From: Ignavibacteria bacterium
Lineage (GTDB): Bacteria > Bacteroidota > Ignavibacteria > Tepidaquicellales > OLB5
Assembly (NCBI GenBank): GCA_013140565.1
Contig: JABFSP010000211.1
Location: 1 to 38,708, forward strand
Direction: 5' to 3'
Length of the DNA: 38,708 bases
Part shown: piece after piece, positions 21,239 through 25,042 of the stretch
Layout of the letters: every line of letters starts with the position of its first letter
Position numbering within the stretch: position 1 is the first letter of the stretch
Translations under genes and position numbers: made by a program
The notes under the pieces: model-generated
The model's input: the letters and a program-made list of their open reading frames with translations, nothing else
Databases searched by the model: none
Told to the model about the DNA's origin: nothing

Positions 21239-21406
21239 ATTATATAATTATTGTTTTTGGAAACAATTACATTTCGCTCCTGACGGAGCTCTAAAATCAT
21301 GCTATTCAAATCCTACCTTCCTTCGCTTTGCTTGTTAAGGCGGGCAAACATAACGCTCCTACGGAGCTAAAACCAAATTCTAGTTAACTATTGTTCATTG
21401 TTCATT

Positions 21407-22527: not shown

Positions 22528-22633
22528 ATCTCAATTATTGATTTACAAACTTATGACGTTTACTCATTGCTCACAAGATAATTACAGAGAAATTTTCGAT
22601 GTCCCGCCAGAACGGGACTGTTCATTATTCTTT

Positions 22634-22684
22634 GTTGAGCCACGCTTCTTGTGGCGAAACCTTACTCCGAAGGAGGAAGGCTTA
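22634..22684. repeat. Two-hairpin intergenic element, copy 2, ending at the stop codon of the 22682-23590 gene
   Basis: gttgaGCCACgcttcttGTGGCgaaaCCTTaCTCCgaaGGAGgAAGGctta. Confidence 0.8.
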
Positions 22685-23590
22685 TCGTCCCACAACCGTC
22701 TTTACATATTTTTCCATCGCCTCACGGTACGTATACTTCGGCTTCCAGCCAAGCATACGCTCAGCTTTTTCGCTTGAAATAAACCTGCCCTTATAATTGC
22801 CTTTGCGGTCTTCTATGAACTTCACCTTTGCTTTTATTCCCAGAATCTCCTCAAGTGTTGTAACTATATCAATAACCTTTATTACTTCCCTGCCGTTAAT
22901 ATTAAAGATCTGGTTCTCGCCCTCGGAACTCAAACAGCTGACATTGCCTTCGGCAAGATCGCGTACGTAAATAAATTGCCGTGTCTGACTGCCTGTACCG
23001 TGTATTGTAATTTCTTCACCCTTCAGAATTTTATCTATGAATATCGGAGTAACGGTTGCCGCCCTTGCACGCTCACCAAATGGTATGCCGTAACGCATGA
23101 TGGTATAATTTACCCCGTAAAGATTTTTGTAGTTCTTACAGAACATCTCTGCGGCAATTTTTGATGATGTATATAAATGATCGGGGTTCTGAGCGTATAT
23201 CGTTTCTTCAGTGATCTGTGTATCGTCATCACCTTCCACGCTTCCGTATATCCACTCAGTGGATGAAAGCAAAACGCGCGCAACATTGTTTTCACGGGCA
23301 GCTTCAAGTACGTTAATTGTGGAGTTCGATGTGTTCAGGTTTGATACAATGGGTTCATTAAAAAAAATATTCACATTTGCCTGTGCCGCCATATGATATA
23401 TGGCGTCAATTCCTTTGGCTGCGTTTTTGAACTTAGCAGTATCGTTAACATCGCCAATAATGTTTTCGCATTTTTGCCCGTAAACGGGCGCTTCAAGGTC
23501 GTATATAATTACGGTATGACCCTGTTCCATCAGTACGTCAACTACGTGCGAACCTATGAATCCCGCACCGCCTGTAACCAGTATTTTCAT
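22682..23590 (-). CDS. NAD-dependent epimerase/dehydratase (GalE/UDP-glucose 4-epimerase-like)
   Basis: MKILVTGGAGFIGSHVVDVLMEQGH, YHMAAQANV, LLSSTEWIYGSVEGDDD, YTSSKIAAEMFCKNY, GWKPKYTYREAMEKYV. Confidence 0.85.
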   Translation of the reverse strand: MKILVTGGAGFIGSHVVDVLMEQGHTVIIYDLEAPVYGQKCENIIGDVNDTAKFKNAAKGIDAIYHMAAQANVNIFFNEPIVSNLNTSNSTINVLEAARENNVARVLLSSTEWIYGSVEGDDDTQITEETIYAQNPDHLYTSSKIAAEMFCKNYKNLYGVNYTIMRYGIPFGERARAATVTPIFIDKILKGEEITIHGTGSQTRQFIYVRDLAEGNVSCLSSEGENQIFNINGREVIKVIDIVTTLEEILGIKAKVKFIEDRKGNYKGRFISSEKAERMLGWKPKYTYREAMEKYVKTVVGR

Positions 23591-23677
23591 TTAATCGTTG
23601 TGATTTTTAATATACAAGCGCTAAAATAGCCATATCTTCAGGCATTTGAAATATAATTATTTTCGTGATATTTATGT

Positions 23678-23903
23678 TCGACTCCTATGGAGTCGATATC
23701 CTTCAACCAATCTATTTTATAAATGTATGACTCCTGACGGAGTCAGCTTCGTGCATTCATTATTTATTCCCGCTTTTCTAAATCCGCATCGTGATCCGAT
23801 TTTGAATCTCATCCCCAGTTCACAAGTTAGATTCTTTTTGACCGCAGAGCGGTCACATATTTATAGATAGAATGTTAAAAATATTTTGACCCCATAGGGG
23901 TCA
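23678..23903. repeat. Cluster of four short palindromes (GAC...GTC family)
   Basis: TCGACTCC-TAT-GGAGTCGA (23678-23696), TGACTCC-TGAC-GGAGTCA (23728-23745), TGACCGC-AGA-GCGGTCA (23839-23855), TGACCCC-ATA-GGGGTCA (23887-23903). Confidence 0.85.
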
Positions 23904-23953
23904 CACATCCTTAACACTCTTTGCGTCCTTAGCGCTCTTCGCGGTTTATGCTT

Positions 23954-25042
23954 CTATGATGCCATACACTTTTTAAAATTCTTTATATAATCTCCTGCAA
24001 GAGCCGCCATCGAAAATTTCTTCATAGCAACTTCTTCAATTCCATTAGAAAGCTTATTAATTATTGCGGGATCTTTTATTATCTCTTCCATTTTTACTGC
24101 AAGTCCGGCTGCTGCATTATCAAATATTATGCTGTCAATGCCGTCGTTAATATATTCCCTGAACCCCGCAAGGTCACTGCATATTGAAGGCACTCCTTCG
24201 CTGTAACCAATCAGCAGCGGACCGCATTGCGTTACCTGCCTGTAAGGCAGTATCAGCACATCATTTGAATTGTAAATTTGGTGTATCTTTCTGTAATCAA
24301 TAAACTCATCATGAATGCTTGCATTAACTATATTGCGGATCCTGTCAAGTATAGCCTCTTTATCATACTTTATCCTGCCGTAAATATTCAGTTCAAAATC
24401 CAGCCCTTTGTTCTGCAGAATTCCGGCGGCATCGAGAAGTGTTTCGATGCCTTTATATTTTTCAACCGAGCCGAAGAAAAAAAACCGTACTTTGCCGGAT
24501 AAATTTTTCTCCAAAGAGTTCTTTTCTGCGGTTTCACCTGTTTCTTTGTAATAATCTATCACCGGAAGCTGAAATACAGGCGGGCTGAAACCGTGCTGCT
24601 GTTTAAATATTTCTGACTGTACCTTGCTTGCAGCGCATATTTTTTTTAAGGCAAGCTTCATTGTCATTTTGACAGAGAACATTCCATGCTTATCCTTAAT
24701 TTCCGGGTGAAGGTCAACATCATGCATAACCACAAGGAATTTCCTGAGAAGAATACCGGCAAGCAAAACCTGGTAAACCGTCATTGTGTTGAACCATACA
24801 ACATCAGGTTTCATTTTCCTTATCCGTAAAAGGAAAAATATTTCACTCATAAAGCTCAGCGGATTGCGGAAACGTCTGCGCTGAATGAACTCCGCACCGA
24901 ATTTTTTGCACCAGCGGTCAATTTCAATGGTCGCTTCCTTTGCCTGCAGGAAAATATTGAGTTCAATATGTTTCCCGAGTTCACCGGCGACGGTATAGCT
25001 GTGGTCTATGTAGCTTTCGGAAGTTAAGTAAACTACTTTCAA
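23954..25042 (-). CDS. Glycosyltransferase family 4
   Basis: VRFFFFGSVEKYKGIETLLDAAGIL, VLILPYRQVTQCGPLLIGYSEGVPSICSDLAGFREYI. Confidence 0.82.
   Translation of the reverse strand: MKVVYLTSESYIDHSYTVAGELGKHIELNIFLQAKEATIEIDRWCKKFGAEFIQRRRFRNPLSFMSEIFFLLRIRKMKPDVVWFNTMTVYQVLLAGILLRKFLVVMHDVDLHPEIKDKHGMFSVKMTMKLALKKICAASKVQSEIFKQQHGFSPPVFQLPVIDYYKETGETAEKNSLEKNLSGKVRFFFFGSVEKYKGIETLLDAAGILQNKGLDFELNIYGRIKYDKEAILDRIRNIVNASIHDEFIDYRKIHQIYNSNDVLILPYRQVTQCGPLLIGYSEGVPSICSDLAGFREYINDGIDSIIFDNAAAGLAVKMEEIIKDPAIINKLSNGIEEVAMKKFSMAALAGDYIKNFKKCMAS

Follow-up and report, generated by a model that had tools for sequence, protein, structure and literature searches.

A two-hairpin repeat unit, dispersed in an Ignavibacteria genus and placed in inverted copies around IS200-like Y1 transposase genes

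The nearest published arrangement to the one described here is the TIRtron, in which the gene for a Y1 transposase (TIRYT) lies between long inverted repeats, some of them self-complementary, and whose repeats occur elsewhere too, singly, as dimers, or in groups (Di Nocera et al. 2013, PMC3733652). Among the published TIRYTs, 20 of 26 belong to subclass 2.1, and the rest belong to subclass 2.2 or 2.5 (PMC6006769). A separate group of these enzymes, TnpA_Y1 subclass 1.2, is defined by the signature Y---Q--HH, a WQ motif, a DH-x-H motif (DH[IV]H), and a length of ~150 amino acids (aa), with hosts that are mostly Bacteroidota (Quentin et al. 2018, PMC6006769). Members of subclass 1.2 were reported to have no REP and, in general, to lack terminal structures of the IS200 type, and as of 2018 they were described as IS200-like proteins of unknown function (PMC6006769).

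The window analyzed here is a stretch of 38,708 nucleotides (nt) that constitutes contig C306 of a 3.73-Mb draft Ignavibacteria genome. A congener, G002, matches Ignavibacteria bacterium UBA2360 without a difference over 1.9 kb, which places the genus in Ignavibacteria. Four palindromes had been reported by an initial annotation; they lie in a 363-bp gap between an epimerase gene and a glycosyltransferase gene, both on the minus strand. All four are present exactly as written (in order of position, stems of 8, 7, 7, and 7 bp around the loops TAT, TGAC, AGA, and ATA [Table 1]), and the spacings of 50, 111, and 48 nt given for them are correct. The palindromes of this cluster are therefore real, but they are not independent of one another, since they constitute two copies of a single paired unit. 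Overlooked at that stage were the two direct-oriented pairs, the conserved tag that follows hairpin 1, and the conserved motif that follows hairpin 2. A search for direct repeats inside the 371-bp region came back empty because the stems differ, and Rfam yielded no family match within the window. The next intergenic gap contains a further perfect hairpin (positions 22601 to 22618, GTCCCGCCAGAACGGGAC), which is not of the unit type.

The unit opens with hairpin 1 and a tag of 11 nt (CACATTTATAG as consensus; in degenerate form, (C/A)A(C/T)RTTTRTAG), continues with a spacer of ~21 nt, and closes with hairpin 2 and the motif (C/A)ACRT, for a total of 70 to 73 bp. The two hairpins are ~50 bp apart and in direct orientation in the copies listed with their flanks, and the sequence to the left of hairpin 1 is unconserved. 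Units A and B of the window are divergent, pointing away from each other.

Table 1. Features of the two-hairpin units and their neighbors in the window (CM, covariance model)
Feature	Coordinates	Strand	Remarks
Unit A, complete two-hairpin repeat	23673..23745	-	CM R1 71.2 bits, E = 5e-14 (copy belongs to the training set)
Unit A hairpin 1, TGACTCC-GTCA-GGAGTCA	23728..23745	-	
Unit A tag TACATTTATAA, 3' of hairpin 1	23717..23727	-	Conserved in 67 aligned units (conservation inflated by selection)
Unit A hairpin 2, TCGACTCC-ATA-GGAGTCGA	23678..23696	-	
Unit A terminal motif AACAT	23674..23678	-	Shares last base of the 8-bp stem
Inter-unit segment, 93 bp	23746..23838	.	Length varies among orthologues
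Unit B, complete two-hairpin repeat	23839..23908	+	CM R1 78.8 bits, E = 1e-15 (copy belongs to the training set)
Unit B hairpin 1, TGACCGC-AGA-GCGGTCA	23839..23855	+	
Unit B tag CATATTTATAG, 3' of hairpin 1	23856..23866	+	
Unit B spacer, AT-rich	23867..23886	+	Length conserved, sequence not
Unit B hairpin 2, TGACCCC-ATA-GGGGTCA	23887..23903	+	
Unit B terminal motif CACAT	23904..23908	+	
GCTCC-family unit, atypical/degenerate (hairpins 21355-21367 and 21276-21289, 79 bp apart)	21268..21369	-	CM R2 32.1 bits, E = 4.6e-5
NAD-dependent epimerase/dehydratase gene, array neighbor	22682..23590	-	Context only; Pfam Epimerase, 3e-49
Group 1 glycosyltransferase gene, array neighbor	23954..25042	-	Context only; Pfam Glyco_trans_1_4, 6.7e-15

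Palindromes with a stem of at least 7 bp, a loop of 3 to 5 nt, and at least 4 G/C number 13 in the window, a few of them entered twice as the same palindrome with two loop lengths, versus 2.2 ± 1.5 in Markov shuffles. The genome-wide comparison with chance and the assessment of intergenic enrichment that had been recommended at the outset, for which counts were based on searches and on sampled stretches, place these palindromes far above chance and strongly between genes. GC-rich hairpins with a stem of at least 6 bp and a loop of 3 to 4 nt occurred 19 times between genes in 201 kb of unselected stretches of this genome, window included (0.6 expected), and 14 times in 360 kb of unselected stretches of a congener (0.5 expected). 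The excess of GC-rich hairpins is ~30-fold between genes and only about twofold in coding sequence. The pattern GCTCCN{3,4}GGAGC has 38 matches in the genome, as opposed to none for the reversed control pattern, and TGACTCCN{3,4}GGAGTCA is confined to this genus among the 59 genomes scanned, with no matches for its reversed control.

Used as the query of a plain DNA search, the window region recovers copies of one unit or the other dispersed over dozens of sites in the genus, with ~75 to 86% identity over 70 to 75 bp. The covariance model built from 67 copies detects ~32 units in this genome (3.73 Mb) and between 1 and 64 in each of 12 congeners (64, 45, 37, 34, 20, 20, 15, 14, 13, 3, 3, and 1). 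The same architecture is seen in a sister family, whose stems are of the GCTCC type and whose tag is ATGTTTGTAG; it has 28 matches in this genome and 0 to 44 in the congeners. Four GCTCC hairpins occur in tandem at L053:567-730 (G000:C117:1566-1725) and repeat every 49 bp exactly; the last has no GTAG tag, and the array looks like a local expansion of the unit. Some units contain a loop insert of 24 to 25 nt (GCTCCGAAGGAGCCCCTTTGGGGTA-like; L051:1023-1117, L057 near 524, L091 near 1356, and L214), which forms two small hairpins and, in several congeners, lengthens the unit to 92 to 96 bp.

Conservation at orthologous loci, another check proposed initially, reveals sites both with and without units. 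At orthologues of the window locus, both units are present in G012 and in G003, the latter with partly decayed stems; G002 has unit B only, G008 has a remnant, and G007 and G004 to G006 have neither unit. In G010, units A and B are each reduced to one hairpin. The junction of its unit B, GCGGTCA-CATAT joined to CCTTAG, matches exactly the product that excision between the two (C/A)A(C/T)RT motifs would give, but a deletion between GGTCACAYAT repeats (slippage) yields an identical product. The junction of unit A lies inside the stem, suggesting that slippage or recombination fits better there than precise excision. No transposition event was seen in these data, and recent jumps are rare in them, because copies at different loci share hairpins and not spacers. 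The material consists of MAG assemblies, and divergence at the species level keeps individual insertions from being viewed cleanly.

In the unit, the pairing of the stems and the length of the spacer are conserved and the spacer sequence is not. In the 67-copy alignment, 99.1% of stem cells are paired and double changes are seen in 9 of the 14 stem pairs; because units were chosen partly by stem pairing and by a tag expression partly imposed on their picking, the pairing percentage and the conservation of the tag are inflated. Double-changed cells number 128 in the 67 units; shuffles give 36.6 ± 7.3, and slid controls give no more than 4. The motif following hairpin 2, which was not imposed during selection, has A in 67, C in 62, and T in 63 of 70 cases. 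Spacer length is nearly fixed (21.3 ± 1.3), whereas pairwise identity among spacers is near random (0.34, versus 0.31 when shuffled). Folded as single-stranded DNA, units A and B each form two hairpins, with z-scores of -4.8 to -7.2. Larger composites at three loci of G012 that have different flanks contain the same four hairpins, with every spacer different.

A Y1 transposase gene of this genome (G000:C330:414-758, minus strand) lies between inverted copies of the unit, an arrangement repeated in congeners. The stem family of the window flanks four of the Y1 transposase genes, and in the GCTCC family one unit starts immediately at the stop codon. Different transposase lineages are accompanied by different stem families, the GAC/GCT split having support of 97/93. 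The transposases are ~154 aa in length (range, 144 to 163 aa), and Y115, Q119, H122, and H123, which make up the Y---Q--HH signature, are invariant in 21 proteins of the genus, as are HxH, W95, and Q96, with HxH mostly in the form DH[ITV]H and in a few cases preceded as EH or NH. The protein passes the NCBIfam model transpos_IS200 (75 bits; cutoff, 55) and fails REP_Tyr_transpos (32 bits; cutoff, 80), and its structure-solved relatives are IS200/IS605-type transposases, including ISHp608 TnpA (phmmer to 2xm3, 4.9e-7). The RAYT-type Y1 transposase that the initial annotation proposed to look for thus has a counterpart in a Y1 gene flanked by units, but that gene encodes an IS200-like TnpA_Y1 and not a canonical RAYT. 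The suggestion of a family of related mobile palindromes is supported: copies are dispersed over 13 genomes, orthologous sites exist in which units are present or missing, and a Y1 transposase gene lies between such units.

The GAC-type transposase gene occupies the same locus in four species, adjoining the same transporter gene, and is absent from other species in which the neighbors at this locus are present. Array-free sites exist at the transposase locus, with compact intergenic regions in G004, G005, and G009; at the closest of the array-free sites, that of G010, the junction retains a decayed hairpin, such that gain and loss are indistinguishable. A DNA search for the GAC-type gene returned no close copy in G002 or G008 despite their 34 and 37 units, and the upkeep of units therefore does not require this gene, suggesting that the gene was lost after the spread of the units or that another transposase is active. 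Other Y---Q--HH lineages of the genus have hairpins of their own (L095 and L098, CCACGACC; L097, L104, and L105, CCCACGGC; L049 and L116, CGATGGGC), some of which are apparently single and not paired. Canonical RAYT-like genes (YILNNPVR) occur at L109, L110, and L111 with GTAG-type tagged hairpins at their flanks, and classical REP systems therefore coexist with the two-hairpin units in this genus.

Inverted units around the transposase gene are conserved beyond the genus, in further genera and in further classes. When GTDB genomes were scanned with the protein alignment, 80 loci emerged, mostly in Bacteroidota and some in other phyla, one of which (L252, UBA2360) is from the same genus as the window. 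A strict scan for tagged pairs found them oriented toward the gene upstream at 27 and downstream at 26 of the 80 loci, versus 1 of 63 on each side in far-flank controls and none in shuffles. Readings in the reverse orientation (12 and 13) are expected because palindrome arrays are near-symmetric. Units detected by covariance models (E ≤ 0.1; tallied from hand-transcribed matches) lie within 150 bp of the gene upstream at 58 loci, downstream at 55, on both sides at 42, and on at least one side at 71. These models, built from this genus only, thus recover the arrangement in hosts as distant as Flavobacterium, Chitinophaga, and Draconibacterium. A plain scan for hairpins with stems of at least 6 bp, which found them upstream of 15, downstream of 28, and on both sides of 9 of 78 homologues, was too strict and is superseded by the tagged-pair scan and the covariance models.

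As in a TIRtron, a Y1 gene lies here within long inverted repeats that also exist as dispersed copies, and one arm of unit B hairpin 2 (GGGGTCAC) matches the TIRtron motif GGGGWSAS. TIRtron transposases, however, are of class 2 (those of 2.1 with a helix-turn-helix tail), whereas here the protein bears a class 1 signature and each repeat consists of a tagged pair of hairpins with a spacer fixed in length. In their Y---Q--HH signature, HUH motif, WQ, and length, the proteins of the genus agree with subclass 1.2, from whose published description they differ in having inverted two-hairpin units, both flanking and dispersed, in place of an absence of ends. That absence was a report and not a criterion for membership of the protein, and the flanking units add to the description of the subclass. 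REP, BIME, and REPIN systems likewise combine dispersed intergenic palindromes, in pairs and arrays, with a link to a Y1 enzyme and a low transposase copy number. The unpaired 5'-foot GTAG of GTAG-REPs and their association with class 2 RAYTs (Y---NP) are nevertheless lacking here, and a REPIN places two inverted REPs in one long hairpin, unlike the present hairpins, which are direct within a unit and inverted only between units. An IS200/IS605 element has a single hairpin at either end, and its ends do not form inverted repeats. Those elements (IS608 and ISDra2) and PATEs have in common with the present system a related Y1 TnpA, hairpin recognition elements, and a short motif beside each hairpin, but each end here is a two-hairpin inverted repeat. 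GTAG-REP, REPIN, and a standard IS200/IS605 element were each rejected, as each fails a tested defining feature. The units probably work in the manner of REPs or MITEs served by an IS200-like enzyme. No description of these units was found in the open-access literature.

The units are probably nonautonomous REP- or MITE-like elements that a subclass-1.2 transposase mobilizes, or once mobilized, in the form of folded single-stranded DNA. We infer that the transposase would recognize the unit in its folded single-stranded form, with a dimer holding the two hairpins, one per monomer, which would explain why geometry is constant and stems stay paired while spacer sequence is free, and that its cuts would fall at the (C/A)A(C/T)RT motif 3' of each hairpin. 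Binding and cutting of this kind are plausible because the protein is related to the solved IS200/IS605 TnpA. The pair in the window and the other dispersed copies would have been spread in trans by the transposase as nonautonomous elements and, over time, would have been retained, lost, or reduced to a single hairpin. A tentative extension is that the two-hairpin unit may by itself be the self-sufficient minimal substrate of the subclass-1.2 Y1 dimer: with one hairpin per monomer and a cut after each (C/A)A(C/T)RT, a circle of ~49 nt would be released and hairpin 1 left at the donor, geometry would be inherited rather than sequence, and the unit would be the general partner of this orphan subclass across the Bacteroidota group. 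The donor joint predicted by this extension is matched exactly by unit B of G010, and slippage would give the same joint.

Among other explanations, an origin of the palindromes by chance, or as unrelated terminators in an AT-rich intergenic region, would suit stems of only 7 to 8 bp and an intergenic position between co-directional genes, but it has next to no probability: chance is already refuted by the intergenic hairpins (19 versus 0.6), the pattern matches (38 versus 0), and the 70-bp homologues found by the dozen. It is also unlikely that the host keeps the hairpins as RNA or DNA structures (mRNA 3' stabilizers, terminators, or protein-binding sites), with selection acting on each copy and use by a transposase incidental. 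Hairpins that are conserved while spacers are unrelated between loci are hard to obtain from recent transposition alone, in the G012 orthologue a T-A pair in hairpin 1 of unit A is replaced by A-T, and genomes that lack a close copy of the cognate transposase gene still have units, all of which accord with retention by the host. However, on the strand of the tag, TTTT occurs within 8 nt after hairpin 1 in 0 of 68 cases and after hairpin 2 in 4 of 68 (9 of 68 and 13 of 68 on the other strand), and U-tracts are too rare for intrinsic terminators to serve as a general explanation. Moreover, units are missing from orthologous sites of several species and stems have decayed in G003, indicating that most units are dispensable, and retention by the host leaves their inverted placement around transposase genes across Bacteroidota unexplained.

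A REP/BIME/REPIN system of the classical kind, mobilized by a canonical RAYT, would also combine intergenic palindromes in pairs and arrays with a Y1 transposase, and canonical RAYT-like genes with GTAG-type hairpins do occur in the genus (L109 to L111). This origin is nonetheless very improbable, given that the 5' foot has no GTAG, that the RTAG of the tag stands 3' of hairpin 1 and reads in the opposite sense, and that hairpins within a unit are direct and not inverted. The score of 32 against a cutoff of 80 for REP_Tyr_transpos, together with Y---Q--HH in place of Y---NP, rules out a canonical RAYT as the partner.

Mobilization of the units by a subclass-1.2 transposase, now or in the past, would provide this subclass with a likely DNA substrate, making its activity directly testable with single-stranded oligonucleotides. 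A class of palindromes that lie between genes in Ignavibacteria and Bacteroidota is also accounted for, and the units offer an example of pairing and spacing that are conserved without conservation of the spacer sequence.
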